From Candidatus Thiovulum karukerense (lineage in GTDB: Bacteria; Campylobacterota; Campylobacteria; Campylobacterales; Thiovulaceae): DNA of 34,342 nucleotides. Below are positions 4,170 to 23,955 of the stretch, one piece after another. The stretch covers positions 1 to 34,342 of the forward strand of contig JAMJTX010000026.1 in NCBI GenBank assembly GCA_024281215.1, in the 5' to 3' direction. How positions within the stretch are numbered: position 1 is the first letter of the stretch; each line of letters opens with the position of its first letter. Made by a program: the position numbers and the translations under genes. Below the pieces are notes generated by a model. The model had not been told where the DNA came from. It ran no database searches and saw only the letters and a program-made list of their open reading frames with translations.

Positions 4170-6113
<1,944 letters not shown>

Positions 6114-6167
6114 ACGATTCTTTGACTAGTATATTAATGTAAATAGAGATATAGGGGAGGTTCCGCA

Positions 6168-9100
6168 ATGGCTGGAAAACTAGGTAGGCTACTTATAGCC
6201 TTTATGCTATTCAACACACTCTTATCCGCTGAAAATGATCTGAGTCCAAAGTATGTTCGACTCTTTTCAAATGATAGTAGTGGTGATGGTGTATGGCAGA
6301 TGGTGGGTGTTGCAGGTTTTTATAACAACATCTATGGAGTTGGATTTGATGAAAAAGTAGGGAGTAATGTATATACAGCTTTCTACTGTGATGACAATAG
6401 TGAAGACTCGATTATTAGGGCTAAAGTAGTTAATTCTGAGACTAATGATGACGAGATGAGAAACCGATATTGGTTATTCTCTGTATCTCTCCAGAAGAGT
6501 GTCACAGGATATGAGCCTCTAGTTGTTGATATTGCATCATCTAACTTAAACTGTTCAACAGTCGGTCAATATAATGGTGTTCCATCACTGGAGAAACCAG
6601 TTGAAGAGCCAAATGGAACAGATGTGATGATTAACTTTATTCATGCTTCAAATGTTAACCCAACTGTTGTATTCTCATTAGGCTATGATCTCGATACTGA
6701 GGGGAAAGATATATATAGCATTACTATCGATGATGATGCGACACCTGTTACATTAAGTTCATTGGCAATGGATCAGACAACTCAGACTTACTCATCAATT
6801 ATCTCAAATATGAGTGTAAAAAAGCAGTCAATTGGTAGTATTGTTGATCTATATCTTAATGATAACCCTGGTTTTGGTAGTGCAGATGATAACTCAACAA
6901 ACTATGATAGAGATAGTAGAGAGTTTGTCTCTGTAAATCATCAAGTACCTATTGATGAGAGTAACTTCCTAAGTGATGAGGTAACTCTGACTATATATAG
7001 TTATGAAGATGCTGATGGTGATGATACAGTTGCATCACGAAATAGTTGGCAACTATACAACAACAAACGACCTAGTGCCGAAAACGGATTTAATGAACTT
7101 CAAGCTGGTAGAGGATACTGGATGAAGTATGACTTCTCTGCTGATAGAACATCAACATTTATTCAAACACTAGATCTAAACTCTAGTTGTGGTAGAGGTT
7201 GTGAAAGTAACTTAACTATTAGCATGAATGGTGATCTCAATAGCACTAACTACCAATTTACAGATAGTGATGTTGATTCAATAGTTTCTGTTCTTAATGA
7301 TACTAATGTCTCTAGAAATGGTGTTGCAGAAGTTAATATATCTGCTGTTAAGATAGCAAACAACTCTATCCTTATTCGAGCTATTGCCGGTGCAAAGCCT
7401 ACTCTTAAAGAGGAGAAGGTTGATGGTGTTACAAAAAATATCTTTTTAAATATTAAAAATGCAACTACTGCATTCTCTAATACAGAAGATATTAAAGCCG
7501 GTCTTGTTCTTGGTGATAGTAGTGTTGTATTAACATCTAGTTCCGTCTATCCACAAATTGTAAGAGAGGGTTGGAATCTATTAACTCTGCCAACTTCAAC
7601 AATTCGAGAGAGTGTTACAGGATTAATGATTGACTGGACAGCTCCAGACTTTAATAAACTTCAGATTAGTGATCACTCTGGTGTTAATGTTGTTGATGTT
7701 ATTGATTCAGATAGTAACCTTTTAATGGATCAAGCTAGTCTAAGAGACTCAGCAAGAGCAATTAATCAAGCTATCTATAAAGCTCAAACATCAGGAACTC
7801 TCTCAACTCAGTACTTTAATGTAAGAGCTATTCCAGTAACTGATGCTAATGATGTGAATAAAATTATGTTGATATCTAATGATCGATTCTCTATTGCAGT
7901 TGATAAAACTGGTCATAGTAGTTTTACAGGAAAAGTTTTATCACTAAATGGTAATGATAAAAATATTAGAGATACATCTATTGTATCAAGTGATGCAAAT
8001 TTATCAACATCAACTTATGGAGAGTATGCTCTTGTTTTTGAACCTAACCTCAACTCTCAATTTGTTAAAGATGGTATCGCTTCATTTGAGATTAATGGAC
8101 ATAAAATAGCTATTGCAGCTAATGCAACTCTAAATTCTCTAAAGAATCAAATTAATGGTGCAAATATTGATGTTAATGCATCTGAGATAGACTCAGATAT
8201 AGATGGAACGATGGATAGACTTCTTATAACATCAAGCTCAGTTATATCTATCAGGGATACAACTTATACAAAAGTTTATAAATTTACACCTAATCTTATT
8301 GGTGATGTTACGGTATCTCTTCATAAAGGGACAGATTTAGATGGTGAAGTACTTAATTCAAGAGTTACTGTTGCAAAAGATAAGAATATCTCTACATCAT
8401 CTTACACTCAAAATGGGACTTATCTAGATGGTGAAGTTACAAAGAACTATTATAGTTATATAGTAGATAAAGATGGAAATGGAACAATTACTGGAAGTGA
8501 GACAGAATATATTGTTTTAGTTTCGCAAACTCCTGACCTATATCTCAGAGAGAGTGCAGAGTCAAACAACACAGATGATAGCCTTGAAGAGAACCTCTCT
8601 TATGATAAAAATGTTTCAACAGCCGGAGCAATTTTAGGTGCAATTCACGGTGGAACATTTGCAACTGTTGATCTTGATAGCAATGGAGATATCAATAGTA
8701 GCAAACTTGGTGAAAGAAATGTGACAGCAAACAAGTTTATTACAGATGACCTTTTAGTCTCAAATGCTCTTATTACTCTCTATAATGCATTTGCAAATAA
8801 AGAGACAAAATATGTTCCTACTATGATCATTGGTGGTGAATCAAATGTAGATACTGGTATTATCAAATGGCAGAAACTATCACCTATTCAACAGATTAGT
8901 AAATGGTATAAAGATTACAACCTTTTCCATACTAATAACCAAAAGGGTTACTGGGTATATCTTGATAAGTACGACTCAAATAACAGTCTTGTTAAAGTGT
9001 TGATAGAGGAAGATATCGGTTCTGGTATTGAGGAGAATGAAGTCCCAACCGTTACAAAACAGTATATTAGAAGTTTTGATAATGAGCGCAATACTACAAC

Positions 9101-10229
9101 AAATATGTTTGACCTTGATATATCCGCATTTGTTAAAGGTGTAAAGACAACAACAGATAGTAATGGAGATACAGTAGCAGATGAGAGTAGTCTTTTTGTA
9201 TCAGCTCAACTTGTAGGTGTCTCAGATGCTCTTGAAGCTCTTGAGTTTAAAATGCCTATAAATAGTTCAACTGAGGATTCTGCTCCAACAGTTGATGGAA
9301 TTAGAGAGTTCTCAACAGAGATTAACTACTTTGATGTTGATGGTCTCCATAGAGATATGTTAAGTGGTCTAACTCAATTAACAGGTATTAAAATTACTGC
9401 AACAGATGGGCGACTTGATACAGATGAATATACAATTCCTCTTGATGTAACAAAGCCTAAAAAACCTACTCTTGAGTTTAAGACAACAGAGCCTAGAGAT
9501 ATCTTTATTACAGCTGGTGATGTCAATGATACAGTTAAATATCTCATATTTAAAGATAGAATAGATGATATTAATGGAACTGTTATCGATAGCTCAAATG
9601 GTATAAATATACCATCTAACTTTATTATGGAAGTTAATAGAACAGATGGGGAGAGTGGAGTTGGAGGACTTTGCCAACACCCTACTTTTAGTGGTGACAA
9701 CTTAGAGTATGCTTCTCTTATTGTTCTTGCTCTTGATAACCAAGATGATACTCAAGCAAACTTCTCTGATATGAAACGAATCAACTTCTTACCTATGAGA
9801 GATAGCCATGTTTTAGAGAGTACTTATGCTAATGGTTCTACAACTGAAAGAGACGAAGTACCAACTATCTACAACTCATCTTGTGATAATGACGGTGACT
9901 TAACAGATAGTACAGGTGAAACAATAAATAGTGGGATTAGCTTAAAATCTCTTAATGGAGAAGTTCGTATAGCTTACCGAGGTATTGAGGGTGAAAAGTT
10001 TGCTCAAGATCTACCAAATACAATAGTTGTGGGTGTTGTTGGAAACTCAACAGTAAGAGTTGCTGAGATTAAGTATATTGATAGATATGTTGGTAAAAAC
10101 TTCTATATCTCTTATAACGGAAAGATTTATGGTCAAACTTTCCCAACAACAGCAGATTCTGAAAACTATTTAGAGACACCATATCCATTAAACTTAGTCT
10201 CAAATAGTGGGCAGATAATAGGTGATTAA
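6168..10229 (+). CDS. Large secreted/surface protein (1353 aa)
   Basis: Strong SD (ggggagg) and ATG; signal peptide MAGKLGRLLIAFMLFNTLLSAEN; Asp/Asn/Ser/Thr-rich repetitive beta protein with GW/GYW modules (EGWNLLTLP, RGYWMKY, KGYWVYL). Confidence 0.88.
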   Translation: MAGKLGRLLIAFMLFNTLLSAENDLSPKYVRLFSNDSSGDGVWQMVGVAGFYNNIYGVGFDEKVGSNVYTAFYCDDNSEDSIIRAKVVNSETNDDEMRNRYWLFSVSLQKSVTGYEPLVVDIASSNLNCSTVGQYNGVPSLEKPVEEPNGTDVMINFIHASNVNPTVVFSLGYDLDTEGKDIYSITIDDDATPVTLSSLAMDQTTQTYSSIISNMSVKKQSIGSIVDLYLNDNPGFGSADDNSTNYDRDSREFVSVNHQVPIDESNFLSDEVTLTIYSYEDADGDDTVASRNSWQLYNNKRPSAENGFNELQAGRGYWMKYDFSADRTSTFIQTLDLNSSCGRGCESNLTISMNGDLNSTNYQFTDSDVDSIVSVLNDTNVSRNGVAEVNISAVKIANNSILIRAIAGAKPTLKEEKVDGVTKNIFLNIKNATTAFSNTEDIKAGLVLGDSSVVLTSSSVYPQIVREGWNLLTLPTSTIRESVTGLMIDWTAPDFNKLQISDHSGVNVVDVIDSDSNLLMDQASLRDSARAINQAIYKAQTSGTLSTQYFNVRAIPVTDANDVNKIMLISNDRFSIAVDKTGHSSFTGKVLSLNGNDKNIRDTSIVSSDANLSTSTYGEYALVFEPNLNSQFVKDGIASFEINGHKIAIAANATLNSLKNQINGANIDVNASEIDSDIDGTMDRLLITSSSVISIRDTTYTKVYKFTPNLIGDVTVSLHKGTDLDGEVLNSRVTVAKDKNISTSSYTQNGTYLDGEVTKNYYSYIVDKDGNGTITGSETEYIVLVSQTPDLYLRESAESNNTDDSLEENLSYDKNVSTAGAILGAIHGGTFATVDLDSNGDINSSKLGERNVTANKFITDDLLVSNALITLYNAFANKETKYVPTMIIGGESNVDTGIIKWQKLSPIQQISKWYKDYNLFHTNNQKGYWVYLDKYDSNNSLVKVLIEEDIGSGIEENEVPTVTKQYIRSFDNERNTTTNMFDLDISAFVKGVKTTTDSNGDTVADESSLFVSAQLVGVSDALEALEFKMPINSSTEDSAPTVDGIREFSTEINYFDVDGLHRDMLSGLTQLTGIKITATDGRLDTDEYTIPLDVTKPKKPTLEFKTTEPRDIFITAGDVNDTVKYLIFKDRIDDINGTVIDSSNGINIPSNFIMEVNRTDGESGVGGLCQHPTFSGDNLEYASLIVLALDNQDDTQANFSDMKRINFLPMRDSHVLESTYANGSTTERDEVPTIYNSSCDNDGDLTDSTGETINSGISLKSLNGEVRIAYRGIEGEKFAQDLPNTIVVGVVGNSTVRVAEIKYIDRYVGKNFYISYNGKIYGQTFPTTADSENYLETPYPLNLVSNSGQIIGD

Positions 10230-10259
10230 GAGTCACACTATATTTAGAAGGAGTATAAA

Positions 10260-10466
10260 ATGCTAACAGCAATTGCAGCACTACTTGTCGCCTCCCTTGT
10301 GGGGGGGGTTTTTGGCTCTGTGGCAACATACACCTATGTTGATTCATCTGAAGGTAAGTATTGCGATAGAATGAGTGATGAAGTAACTCCTGATGAGGAG
10401 TTCTATAATGAATATGGCACAACAGAAAATTATAACTCTGGAGAAGACGGATACGAAGGGTATTGA
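10260..10466 (+). CDS. Small secreted or membrane peptide (68 aa) with internal G8 tract
   Basis: AAGGAG SD upstream; hydrophobic N-terminus MLTAIAALLVASLVGGVFGSVATYTYV, acidic C-terminus; stop 1 nt before next gene's ATG. Confidence 0.6.
   Translation: MLTAIAALLVASLVGGVFGSVATYTYVDSSEGKYCDRMSDEVTPDEEFYNEYGTTENYNSGEDGYEGY
10311..10318 (+). repeat. Poly-G (G8) homopolymer in coding sequence
   Basis: cttgtGGGGGGGGtttttgg within the 68-aa ORF; the longest G/C homopolymer I noticed in this AT-rich window. Confidence 0.9.
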
Positions 10467-10467
10467 T

Positions 10468-12135
10468 ATGAAGAAGTTCCTGAATATAATTAACTTATCT
10501 CTCTTCTCTATTTTTATACTCCTATCAGGTTGTAATGTAGCTGATAATATCAATAAAGATCTATTGGGTATTGAAGATGAAGATAACAGTAATCCTCCGC
10601 CATCTAATAGTGATGATAGTCAGCCTGATGATAGTAGTGATGATGACAACAGTAATCCTCCACCATCTAACAATGACAACAATCAATCTGATGATAGTAG
10701 TGATGATGACAACAGTAATCCTCCACCATCTAACAATGACAACAATCAACCTGATGATAGTAGCGATGATTCTAATATTACTAGCAATGGTGATTCAAAC
10801 CTTTCAAGCGGTTCTAACGATAATGATACCCAAGAGACTCCTATGGAGTGTGAGAGTGGTTACCATTTAGAGGGTGATACTTGTGTTGTTGATACAGTTA
10901 CTTGCGATGACGATCAAATTCTTCAAAATGGTGAATGTGTTGATGTAACAACTACTTGTTCGACGGGTTATCACTTATCTGGTGGAACTTGTGTGCCTGA
11001 TAGTTCTGGTGGTTTAGATTATGTGGAGGTGGTTGAATTTAACCTTTCACTACCTGAATATAACAACCAGAAAAGTATAGATATTATCATGCCAAAAAAT
11101 CATGAAAAAGTTGTTATTGTTCGTTCAAATCCTAAACAGACTGATATCAACCTAAAGATGCAACTTCATCAATTTACTAACAATAGTGTAGTTGATGCAA
11201 TGCTTCAGGCTGAAGGTTCTCCAATCGTTGCACAGAACTATGATTATGGAGTCATTTTTACATCTGGAGATGCCATAGGTAAAGATGAGTTCCAATTGAC
11301 CCTTGAGAACGATACAGGATTTAGCGATAGTGTATATATCAATATGCAGGTTATTGATCAGATAACTTTAACTAAGGCACGAGATAAATATACTGTTGTA
11401 ACAGATGGAGATGCTGTAAATATAGTTATTGGGGGCTACAATGCTTTAAATAATCCTCTTGAGTTTGAAATTGTTGATTTAACCCAGATTAACAATGAGA
11501 AAAATCTTGCAATTGTTGTTAATGGCTCAAGAATCTTCAATACAGATACAGTTGATGGAGTTGATTTCAACTTTTCAGTTAGAGGTCTTGAAGATTGGAA
11601 AGAGAGTGTTGAGATTAAAGTTAAAGATAGAAGTACAGGAACAACTGAATCACTATTCTTAACTATTGAGTCTGCAAAACGAAGTACTGCTATCTATGAA
11701 GATCTAGAAGAGTGTAATGAAGATTACAATAGAAACTACTTTGAGGCAACTAGTGATAGCAACACTCCTCAATCTCCAGATGGAATATATAGTTCTGACA
11801 ATGCGATATACTTAAAATCGACTTACAATATGGACTATGATATAGGTAATACATTCTCAACTGTTATGGTATTCCATCCAACAAATGGTCAATACTCTTA
11901 TGATAGCTATGCACGAGAGACAATATCTAATTTAGATACTGGAAAAAGGATAGCTACTATATACTATGCAAACTACCTTCAAGGAATGGATTACTTTGTT
12001 AAGTACTACAATGAGGATAAGAACCAAGTTGTATGTGAGAGACGAACATTCCCTGTAATTAGTGCAGCTCCAATTGAAGACTGGGAGAGCGGACTCTATA
12101 CTCCGACTGAGTCAGAAATTCCTTCTATCTTCTAG
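10468..12135 (+). CDS. Lipoprotein with Asp/Ser/Pro-rich repeat stalk and Cys-rich repeats
   Basis: MKKFLNIINLSLFSIFILLSGCN: signal peptide with lipobox LSGC; 3 copies of a 21-aa repeat; C-x(n)-GYHL-x-G-x-TCV repeats. ATG 10468 preferred over 10393 in the track. Confidence 0.85.
   Translation: MKKFLNIINLSLFSIFILLSGCNVADNINKDLLGIEDEDNSNPPPSNSDDSQPDDSSDDDNSNPPPSNNDNNQSDDSSDDDNSNPPPSNNDNNQPDDSSDDSNITSNGDSNLSSGSNDNDTQETPMECESGYHLEGDTCVVDTVTCDDDQILQNGECVDVTTTCSTGYHLSGGTCVPDSSGGLDYVEVVEFNLSLPEYNNQKSIDIIMPKNHEKVVIVRSNPKQTDINLKMQLHQFTNNSVVDAMLQAEGSPIVAQNYDYGVIFTSGDAIGKDEFQLTLENDTGFSDSVYINMQVIDQITLTKARDKYTVVTDGDAVNIVIGGYNALNNPLEFEIVDLTQINNEKNLAIVVNGSRIFNTDTVDGVDFNFSVRGLEDWKESVEIKVKDRSTGTTESLFLTIESAKRSTAIYEDLEECNEDYNRNYFEATSDSNTPQSPDGIYSSDNAIYLKSTYNMDYDIGNTFSTVMVFHPTNGQYSYDSYARETISNLDTGKRIATIYYANYLQGMDYFVKYYNEDKNQVVCERRTFPVISAAPIEDWESGLYTPTESEIPSIF
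10576..10764 (+). repeat. 63-bp tandem repeat, 3 copies (10576-10638, 10639-10701, 10702-10764)
   Basis: Encodes DDDNSNPPPSNNDNNQ(S/P)DDSS three times; copies 2 and 3 almost identical at nucleotide level, copy 1 diverged. Confidence 0.93.
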
Positions 12136-12153
12136 TTCCGTAGGAGAAAATTC

Positions 12154-15132
12154 ATGAAATATCTATTCACTCTATTGGCTTTAGCAACCTCCCTTTTTGG
12201 GAGGGACTTCACTGTTACAACAAGTGAAGAACTCTACTTTGCTCTTAAAAGTGCAGAAAACAATCTTGAAGATGACACAATTACTCTAAAAAAGGGTCGC
12301 TACATTGCAACGGATAAACATCTTTTTGTCTATGAGTCTAGTGAGAATTTTGACTTAACACTTGAAGCTGAGTCTGGAGCAAGAAGAAGTGATGTGGTCA
12401 TTGATGGAAATGGCTTGTCTTCTGTTCTAACCTTTCGTAATGAGACATATAAGATTATTGTCAATATTCTAAATATAACGATACAGAATGGAGATACAGC
12501 TGAACAGGGTGGTGGTATTCTTATGGATAACATAGGGGAACTAAACCTTGATGGTGTAACAGTTGCTTATAATAAGTCAAAGTATGATGGTGCTGGTGTC
12601 TATAATTTAGGAACAGTTATTGTTAATGAGTCAATTATTGCTAGAAATGAGTCTTTGAGAGGAGTTGGTGGAGGTGTTTTTACGGGTCGTAATGCAATTA
12701 TAAAACTCTCGCAAATATCTTACAACAAATCCTATAAACACGGTGGTGGAGTGTTTAGTACAAAAACAGCTCTTGTCAAAGATTCAACAATATCATACAA
12801 CCAGAGTAGTTATGGTGGAGCATTCTATGGTCTCTCAAAGCTTAAAGCGACACAATCTATATTTACAAACAATAGTGCTAAATATGATGGTGGGGCAATT
12901 AAATGCGATAAAGTTCGCCTTTTTGATGTAAATCTTTCCAACAATAGTGCTAATAACTATGGTGGTGCTATCTATTCAACAAGAGTCAATCTTGATGATT
13001 CAAGCCTTTTTGAGAATAGTGCGAAATATGGTGGAGCTATTCTTTCAGATGAGATCGAGATAAAAGGTGGTTCGATATTTAAGAACTCCGCAGATTATAG
13101 TGGGGGTGCTTTAAAGGGTGTTAATGTAATAGTGAAAGATGCAAATCTTTCATACAACACTAGCAGAAGAGATGGTGGAGCGATTGAGACCACTCAAGCT
13201 ATCATATCAAATAGTGAGCTATCTGATAATAGCAGTAAAAAGGGTGGAGCTATTTTTGGCAAACGAGTCACAATTACAAACTCTACTTTTAATCGAAACA
13301 GGTCAGCTATAAGTGGTGGAGCTGTTAAAGGTTACGATCTTAAAATTCGTTATACCACTATGTGCGAAAATCGATCTGAGAAGTTTGGAGGGGCTATTGA
13401 TGGAGTTGATGTTACAGTTACAAACTCAAATCTTTCCAAAAATGTCAGCTATAAAGGTGGTGCTATCTACTCTCCGCACACATCAAAGCTTGATTTAACA
13501 AACTCCCTTATGTTTTACAATAAAGCATACTATGGAGGAGCACTGTTTGGTAATGTAAAGATTTTTAACTCTCTTCTACTTAATAACTATGCTAAAGGAA
13601 TGACTCTCTATGGTAAAGGAACTCTTATTAACAATGTTATTAAGAACTTTACTGCACCAGATGTAGCTTCTCAAGAGATATTTATGACAGGGAATCTTAA
13701 GCTAGAGAACAACTATCTCAATATGGGTAACATCTATAACTATCAGATGTATAAACTCAAAAGAAAAGGGAATCTGCCACTAAGTCAATTAGAGGAGGTT
13801 GAAGATCTATCGAGTGTATTTGGAGAACAGTCTCATATAGCTTCAGTTGGACTATCCGTAGATTTTAGATCTAGTTGTGAAGAGATTTTTAATGTGAAAA
13901 ATGCATATGAATCTCTTTTAGAGAATGCTCTTATCGATGTTAATGGTGATGATGATAATGATACTATCGTTACGATGAAGCGAGATGATAGAGGTGCTGA
14001 AAGAAGCTCAATGTTAGCAGATATTAGTGATTTGATGGTTGAGGGTGACCAGAAAGTCTTTAATGAACTATACCTTGTTGTGATTGTTAGAAGTGGAAAA
14101 CATAGAGTCGAAAAATATTTTATCGATTTTGACGAGGGTCGAGGTTATGAAGAGATTAGAGGAAATTCTGTAAATCACCGTTTTCATAACTCTGGAATTA
14201 AAGATATAAAAGTTAAGATTGTTGATAGTGCAGGCAATATTGTTGAAAGAGAGTTTCCAGTAGATATATATGAACTATCTCAAGATGAGTTCCGAGAACT
14301 GTTGAGCGATACTGAGACACGAGAGTATCTTGAAAACATAAGTAAAGGTGTTCTAAATGTTGCAGAGGATATGAATGGCTCAAAATATAGTTCTGCGGTT
14401 GGTCTCTTTAATAGAAGTAGTGGTGATAGTGAATATCTAAAAAGAAGGTATGGGGCTTTATTGAGTGAGTTAAACTCTGAGAGTGCTTCAAGTAATGAGT
14501 TTAATATCTCGAAGATGGTACAGTTTAATAATGGTGTCAATGAGGTTAAAGAGTATATCCTTAGTAACTTGGAGGAGTTTAACTTAGTCTCTCGCGAGGA
14601 GTCAAAAGATGCTATTGAGAATGCTAAGAAGTATATAGTTGAGAATCCATCAGAGTTCAATCTCACAAGTTTCAGAAACTATGAAGAGATTATTATCGAT
14701 ATCCAACATCAAATTATGTCAAATCTTGATGAGTATAACTTAACCCATAAAAAGAACTTAGATGTTGCATATAGTGAAGGACAAGAGAAAGTTATAAGCA
14801 ACCCGAAAGCATTCAACCTTATGAGTATGAACGACCTTCAGGGTGAAATGAGAAAACTTACTGATAAGATTAAAGCAGATCCATCTAAATATGGCATTAA
14901 AGTTACCAGAGAAGTTGTTCAAAGTCTTGATAAAGGTTGGTCTCTTCTTGGAACTCTTGCTGAAATAGAAGATATATCAATATTTGACGGTGCAAAAATT
15001 GTTTGGATATTTGCCGAAGGTGAGTTTAAGGGGTATAGCCCTGATCCTGATGTCCGAAGGAAGATTCGGGGAGCATACTTTGAACTCTTTAGCCATGTTC
15101 CAAAAAATGCTGGAATCTGGCTCTATAAGTAA
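12154..15132 (+). CDS. Secreted Pmp-like right-handed beta-helix surface protein
   Basis: Signal peptide MKYLFTLLALATSLFG; repeated SxFxxNSAxxxGGA(I/L/V) turns; C-terminal repeated NPxxFNL motifs; terminal GWSLLG...GIWLYK module. Confidence 0.87.
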   Translation: MKYLFTLLALATSLFGRDFTVTTSEELYFALKSAENNLEDDTITLKKGRYIATDKHLFVYESSENFDLTLEAESGARRSDVVIDGNGLSSVLTFRNETYKIIVNILNITIQNGDTAEQGGGILMDNIGELNLDGVTVAYNKSKYDGAGVYNLGTVIVNESIIARNESLRGVGGGVFTGRNAIIKLSQISYNKSYKHGGGVFSTKTALVKDSTISYNQSSYGGAFYGLSKLKATQSIFTNNSAKYDGGAIKCDKVRLFDVNLSNNSANNYGGAIYSTRVNLDDSSLFENSAKYGGAILSDEIEIKGGSIFKNSADYSGGALKGVNVIVKDANLSYNTSRRDGGAIETTQAIISNSELSDNSSKKGGAIFGKRVTITNSTFNRNRSAISGGAVKGYDLKIRYTTMCENRSEKFGGAIDGVDVTVTNSNLSKNVSYKGGAIYSPHTSKLDLTNSLMFYNKAYYGGALFGNVKIFNSLLLNNYAKGMTLYGKGTLINNVIKNFTAPDVASQEIFMTGNLKLENNYLNMGNIYNYQMYKLKRKGNLPLSQLEEVEDLSSVFGEQSHIASVGLSVDFRSSCEEIFNVKNAYESLLENALIDVNGDDDNDTIVTMKRDDRGAERSSMLADISDLMVEGDQKVFNELYLVVIVRSGKHRVEKYFIDFDEGRGYEEIRGNSVNHRFHNSGIKDIKVKIVDSAGNIVEREFPVDIYELSQDEFRELLSDTETREYLENISKGVLNVAEDMNGSKYSSAVGLFNRSSGDSEYLKRRYGALLSELNSESASSNEFNISKMVQFNNGVNEVKEYILSNLEEFNLVSREESKDAIENAKKYIVENPSEFNLTSFRNYEEIIIDIQHQIMSNLDEYNLTHKKNLDVAYSEGQEKVISNPKAFNLMSMNDLQGEMRKLTDKIKADPSKYGIKVTREVVQSLDKGWSLLGTLAEIEDISIFDGAKIVWIFAEGEFKGYSPDPDVRRKIRGAYFELFSHVPKNAGIWLYK

Positions 15133-23927: not shown

Positions 23928-23955
23928 GTATCGTCTAAAGATATAAATTCTTAAA
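23928..23955 (-). promoter_or_regulatory. Possible sigma28 (FliA) promoter of flagellin gene
   Basis: Minus-strand TTTAAG (23955-23950) N16 CGATAC (23933-23928), about 40 nt upstream of ATG 23888; partial match to sigma28 consensus. Confidence 0.35.

Follow-up and report, generated by a model that had tools for sequence, protein, structure and literature searches.

The window (the whole stretch of DNA analysed, 34,342 nucleotides) is a complete contig (C26) of a 1.87-Mb Thiovulaceae MAG (Campylobacterota). Downstream of ligA it carries four genes (P0001–P0004), all on the plus strand and separated by gaps of 30, 1, and 18 nt. An ORF check on the window bore out the tight co-directional packing described in the sequence-only reading. 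The features are as follows.

6093..6120, plus strand: predicted sigma-28 (FliA) promoter TTAAAAATATTTCCACATTAGACGATTC, ungapped in six of six Thiovulaceae
6168..10229, plus strand: giant secreted protein P0001 (1353 aa, pI 4.4) with a Sec signal; full-length orthologues confined to Thiovulaceae
10260..10466, plus strand: micropeptide P0002, 68 aa; one membrane helix with GxxxG (LVGGVFGSVA), invariant GKYCD, variable acidic tail
10290..10309, plus strand: G8 tract and hairpin-forming segment (CCTCCC-loop-GGGGGG) inside the micro ORF; synonymous constraint
10468..12135, plus strand: lipoprotein P0003, 555 aa; lipobox Cys22 (LLSGC), disordered repeat linker, variable Cys repeats
11029..12132, plus strand: conserved C-terminal part of P0003; predicted tandem Ig/cadherin-like beta-sandwich domains (AF2, Foldseek)
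12154..15132, plus strand: Pmp-like secreted protein P0004, 992 aa
12391..13653, plus strand: right-handed beta-helix of P0004, about 13 rungs of 23–26 residues (TIGR01376, 3e-27)
14566..14910, plus strand: tail of P0004, five helical repeats of exactly 26 residues (NPxxFNL type)
14926..15129, plus strand: GW domain (GWSLLGT...VWIF..G.F.GYSP...GIWLYK) at the C-terminus of P0004; recurs in secreted proteins of Campylobacterota
23928..23955, minus strand: flagellin (flaA) promoter with TTTAGACGATA core, internal reference

Six genomes were compared: that of the window (G000), four other Thiovulaceae (G001–G004), and the Campylobacterota MAG GLC1. The order ligA–giant–micro–lipoprotein–Pmp-like was kept in all six, the G001 contig stopping within the Pmp-like gene. 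A scan of the named genomes placed orthologues in Ca. Thiovulum stygium, Ca. T. imperiosus, and GLC1. Unlike the constant ligA side, the genes beyond the Pmp-like gene vary between Thiovulaceae genomes. Because the identical order recurs in five further genomes although the proteins are only some 35–60% identical, the layout goes beyond chance. The proposal of one co-directional unit in a conserved neighbourhood is supported.

Of the 120 genomes searched, 5 (the window's own among them) had full-length giant orthologues, and all 5 are Thiovulaceae; searches of phylum genomes found no micro gene, full-length giant, or full Pmp-like protein outside this family. Synteny, suggested as a check across Campylobacterota, is therefore kept throughout Thiovulaceae but not across the phylum. 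Partial P0001 paralogues do occur in other Campylobacterota. The only Pfam or NCBIfam family matches of the cassette were PMP repeats in P0004; P0001, P0002, and P0003 had no credible match in either, and a PDB sequence search returned nothing credible. This agrees with the earlier view that the cassette belongs to no recognised system.

The T. stygium giant ORF and the start region of the G004 lipoprotein are frameshifted, and the T. stygium outer-membrane protein described below is likewise disrupted (frameshifts or stop; L023 ~10690-10920, L024 ~9300-9500, L150/L151). Either assembly error or slippage could account for these interruptions.

Predicted exported products of the cassette

Sec or lipoprotein signals on the three large products support their export as the sequence-only reading had it. 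That reading considered the export route unexplained. These signals, together with two secretins encoded in the genome, supply part of it, short of the passage to or across the outer membrane.

For the micropeptide, an export signal is not the reading we favour. The first 38 residues of P0002 are 84% identical between genomes and its acidic tail 27%, compared with 36–40% for the N-termini of the other three cassette proteins. Given that P0002 has no basic n-region and that nothing else in the cassette is as well conserved as its hydrophobic segment, this segment reads as a membrane helix and not as a disposable signal. The helix probably has some role, and its charges suggest a tail-out orientation. 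A P0002 profile run over 299 phylum genomes returned its own match and one false positive only; the latter, in G119, sits in a 550-aa open frame read as a transporter.

P0003 was correctly called a lipoprotein: besides its own lipobox, orthologues with an intact start carry LSGC, FSGC, or SAC. The stalk and Cys-rich knob attributed to it proved lineage-specific. The linker is variable and includes a 63-bp repeat, and neither this repeat stalk nor the Cys-rich stretch (residues 127–180) is conserved among the orthologues. What is conserved is a C-terminal region of 370 aa, predicted to form a string of Ig-like domains (AF2 pLDDT 74; Foldseek E down to 7e-10, with TM low from domain flexing).

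P0004 matched Chlam_PMP (PF02415, 3e-18) and POMP_repeat (TIGR01376, 3e-27), and 14 GG[AGM] turns follow one another at a regular spacing of 23–26 residues from residue 172 on, in line with the Pmp-like beta-helix first proposed. It carries 11 GGA[ILVF] motifs, 3 FxxN, and 21 of the looser [FLI]xxN. An Ig-like stretch may lie between the beta-helix and the 26-residue repeats. No Pfam barrel family matched P0004, whose C-terminus is a GW domain ending in IWLYK, so the absence of an autotransporter barrel noted earlier holds. Elsewhere, the unique tail of P0004 was matched in its C-terminal domain alone, apart from short stretches of weak similarity.

This GW domain (about 65 aa, no Pfam family) occupies N-terminal, internal, or C-terminal positions in secreted Campylobacterota proteins (window 14926-15129; L031, L034, L035, L040, L046) and also occurs in a GH16-like protein of the window's own genome. 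A function as a dedicated sorting tag was rejected on account of the N-terminal occurrences. A profile comparison did not show homology between the GW domain and P0001.

A predicted sigma-28 promoter and the genes that share it

The sequence-only reading missed a predicted sigma-28 promoter, which supplies a biological context for the cassette. The element, TAAA-N15-GACGAT, lies some 50 nt ahead of the giant gene, with CGAT at 6115-6118; its −35 falls within the last ligA codons and its −10 spans the ligA stop and beyond. When the ligA–giant junctions of six genomes were aligned, TTAAA-N17-CGAT stood out as a block without gaps, with TAGACGAT unchanged throughout. Constraint on the LigA protein accounts for part of the conservation of the −35 half, which lies over codons of conserved ligA residues.

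The flagellin gene of the window served for comparison. TTTAGACGATA was found at the matching place upstream of this gene and of its orthologues in four genomes, the T. stygium flaA promoter showing the variant TTTTGACGATA, and the cassette promoter core is common to all five flaA promoters. In the window, a PWM built from these five flaA promoters only placed the cassette site directly behind flaA, at rank 2; of the other five loci, four had it at rank 1 and one at rank 3. The chance of the promoter pattern in one 75-nt upstream stretch is approximately 3e-4 to 1e-3 per genome. FliA itself is encoded in the genome (TIGR02479, 208.7 bits; cut-off 189.6).

The strict pattern TAAA-N15-GNCGAT had 11 matches in the window's genome, a total not above that of the reversed-pattern control; matches also occur inside genes, and the informative set is the promoter-positioned subset alone, as defined in this analysis. 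Five of the 11 fall into this subset, 34–50 nt before a gene start. The genes concerned are those of the cassette, flagellin 2, flgM-flgN-flgK, a second giant of 1267 aa, and a probable outer-membrane protein of 225 aa. In T. imperiosus (G002) and T. stygium (G003) the pattern again stands before the cassette, the second giant, and the outer-membrane protein; the second-giant match in T. stygium was counted though an opposite-strand ORF overlaps it. One of the four promoter-positioned matches in T. imperiosus precedes an unrelated small ORF, and T. stygium has a further match 73 nt upstream of a GW-domain secreted protein. Across the three genomes, nearly all promoter-positioned matches thus precede flagellin, flgM, the cassette, the second giant, or the Thiovulaceae-only outer-membrane protein.

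The 225-aa protein (L113:3887-4564, minus strand; orthologues L146-L151) has no Pfam family, is confined to Thiovulaceae among the 120 genomes searched, and in three or more genomes is preceded by a predicted sigma-28 promoter. The second giant paralogue (L112:7439-11242, contig C163) carries its own sigma-28 type promoter. Another giant paralogue, at 2-2044 of the window on the minus strand, is cut by the contig end and has no sigma-28 type promoter of its own.

Because the cassette has a flaA-type promoter, promoter-positioned matches recur, and FliA is encoded, we conclude that the cassette is predicted to belong to the late flagellar (FliA) regulon.

Proposed surface assembly and alternative readings

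We consider that the cassette probably specifies an exported surface assembly, Thiovulaceae-specific and co-regulated with the flagellum through its FliA-promoter operon. In this model, sigma-28 would drive the operon within the late flagellar programme. P0002 would stay in the inner membrane as a signal anchor with its tail outward, packing through its GxxxG face; P0003 would be membrane-anchored, its flexible linker extending to the Ig-like domains; and the acidic giant and the beta-helix protein would lie outside the cell. The four products, the co-regulated second giant, and the outer-membrane protein may form one structure made together with the flagella. We infer the surface location, the interaction of the four products, and any stalk or veil role from these features. 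Attachment or cell–cell tethering of a motile cell appears the most likely use of such an assembly, and we put it forward tentatively. It is doubtful, yet conceivable, that the cassette, the second giant, and the outer-membrane protein make up an undescribed, flagellum-timed extracellular organelle of Thiovulaceae, either the protein component of the attachment stalk or veil threads or a coat of the peritrichous filaments.

A use as an accessory of the flagella themselves is unlikely within the proposed assembly. The corresponding rival reading, in which the giant is a filament accessory (sheath, cap-like, or bundling) with flagellin-IN/FliD-like domains and the cassette serves swimming and not attachment, we rate as similarly unlikely. 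The FliA promoter upstream of the cassette suits it. Residues ~640-700 of P0001 resemble Flagellin_IN (PF07196; Pfam E 0.47 in one of six; hhalign P 0.002, reversed control 0.33), and the leading Foldseek matches of P0001 include FliD D2-D3 structures. However, all of these scores are below significance. The P0001 structure prediction was poor (mean pLDDT 51.5), and Foldseek with this model gave no significant match (E at least 0.1). Moreover, filament proteins of flagella are not exported by Sec, yet the giant has a Sec signal. The Flagellin_IN/FliD-like domain is therefore treated as a lead.

We find it improbable that the cassette is an ordinary surface or adhesin operon transcribed by sigma-70 read-through from ligA, with TAGACGAT kept for other reasons. 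ligA is always upstream at a conserved spacing of 54–63 nt, and many chance sigma-70-like sites are present; against this, the motif is identical with the core of the flaA promoters, and in up to three genomes it stands again ahead of flagellin, flgM, the second giant, and the outer-membrane protein.

The G-rich segment of the micro ORF bears on a further reading, that of a phase-variable surface locus whose poly-G tract toggles the small membrane protein. The G8 tract at 10301-10308 is the sole G/C run of at least 6 in the window; G7, G7, and G6 tracts are the only such runs in the G001, G002, and G004 loci, and poly-G phase variation is common in Campylobacter according to the portion of PMC6321876 consulted. 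However, T. stygium and GLC1 have GGAGGGG in place of a pure tract, and a hairpin that is stable in all six genomes accounts for the G codons equally well, which makes phase variation a poor prospect.

This hairpin ranks among the strongest operon folds in each genome. The folding sum of the stretch was −82.0 kcal/mol, versus −37.3 ± 5.3 kcal/mol after synonymous reshuffling, and none of 2000 reshuffles matched the observed folding. Ser12 of P0002 is TCC in all six genomes, where TCC makes up 1–9% of Ser codons. No covariation supporting the hairpin was found in a fixed register. Selection may act on an RNA hairpin or on a slippery tract. A classical terminator was rejected, since four of the six genomes have only a short U-run.

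The window's genome has five other tracts of G8 to G10 (L086:1984-1992, L087:2066-2074, L088:2039-2046, L089:1985-1994, L090:1985-1992); mostly intergenic, they are possible contingency sites. As counterparts of the micro-ORF tract they were rejected, since they lie mostly outside main coding genes and do not share its terminator-like context.

Comparison with known systems

P0004 shares GGA[ILVF] repeats and the beta-helix period with chlamydial Pmp proteins (PF02415, TIGR01376), but it has few FxxN motifs and no autotransporter barrel, carrying instead the putative Ig-like stretch, the 26-residue helical repeats, and the C-terminal GW domain. Giant secreted W-domain proteins of other Campylobacterota families (L066, L067, L068, L071) resemble P0001 in length (1000–1400 aa), in having a Sec signal followed by WxL[VI]G..G, and in partial sequence similarity; they had no Pfam annotation where tested. 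Unlike P0001, they are lone genes in unrelated neighbourhoods, and no sigma-28 site was seen in the intact upstream regions checked.

Campylobacter jejuni has sigma-28-dependent non-flagellar secreted proteins (PMC4626219). They would share with the cassette the late flagellar sigma factor, secreted non-filament products, and a CGAT-type −10; the cassette differs in its large products with Sec or lipoprotein signals, its fixed four-gene operon, and its restriction to Thiovulaceae.

The available portions of PMC4680615 and PMC9938260 describe Thiovulum as attaching by a secreted stalk and forming veils, with threads linking cells. Thiovulum is among the fastest swimming bacteria known, its veils reach centimetre scale, and its stalk formation is called mysterious (PMC4680615, in part); its short surface filaments are disputed as flagella or pili (PMC9938260, in part). 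Those portions held no gene tied to the stalk and no mention of the cassette, and the literature, as far as accessible, yielded no genes tied to the speed, veil, stalk, or surface-filament traits. What the analysis yields is a small set of exported proteins, specific to the family, that are predicted to be turned on together with the flagella. The stalk and veil, together with type IV pili, belong to the same organisms as the cassette, in which the extracellular threads are unexplained (PMC4680615 and PMC9938260, in part), and a surface assembly made with the flagella would suit an organism that alternates between fast swimming and tethering.
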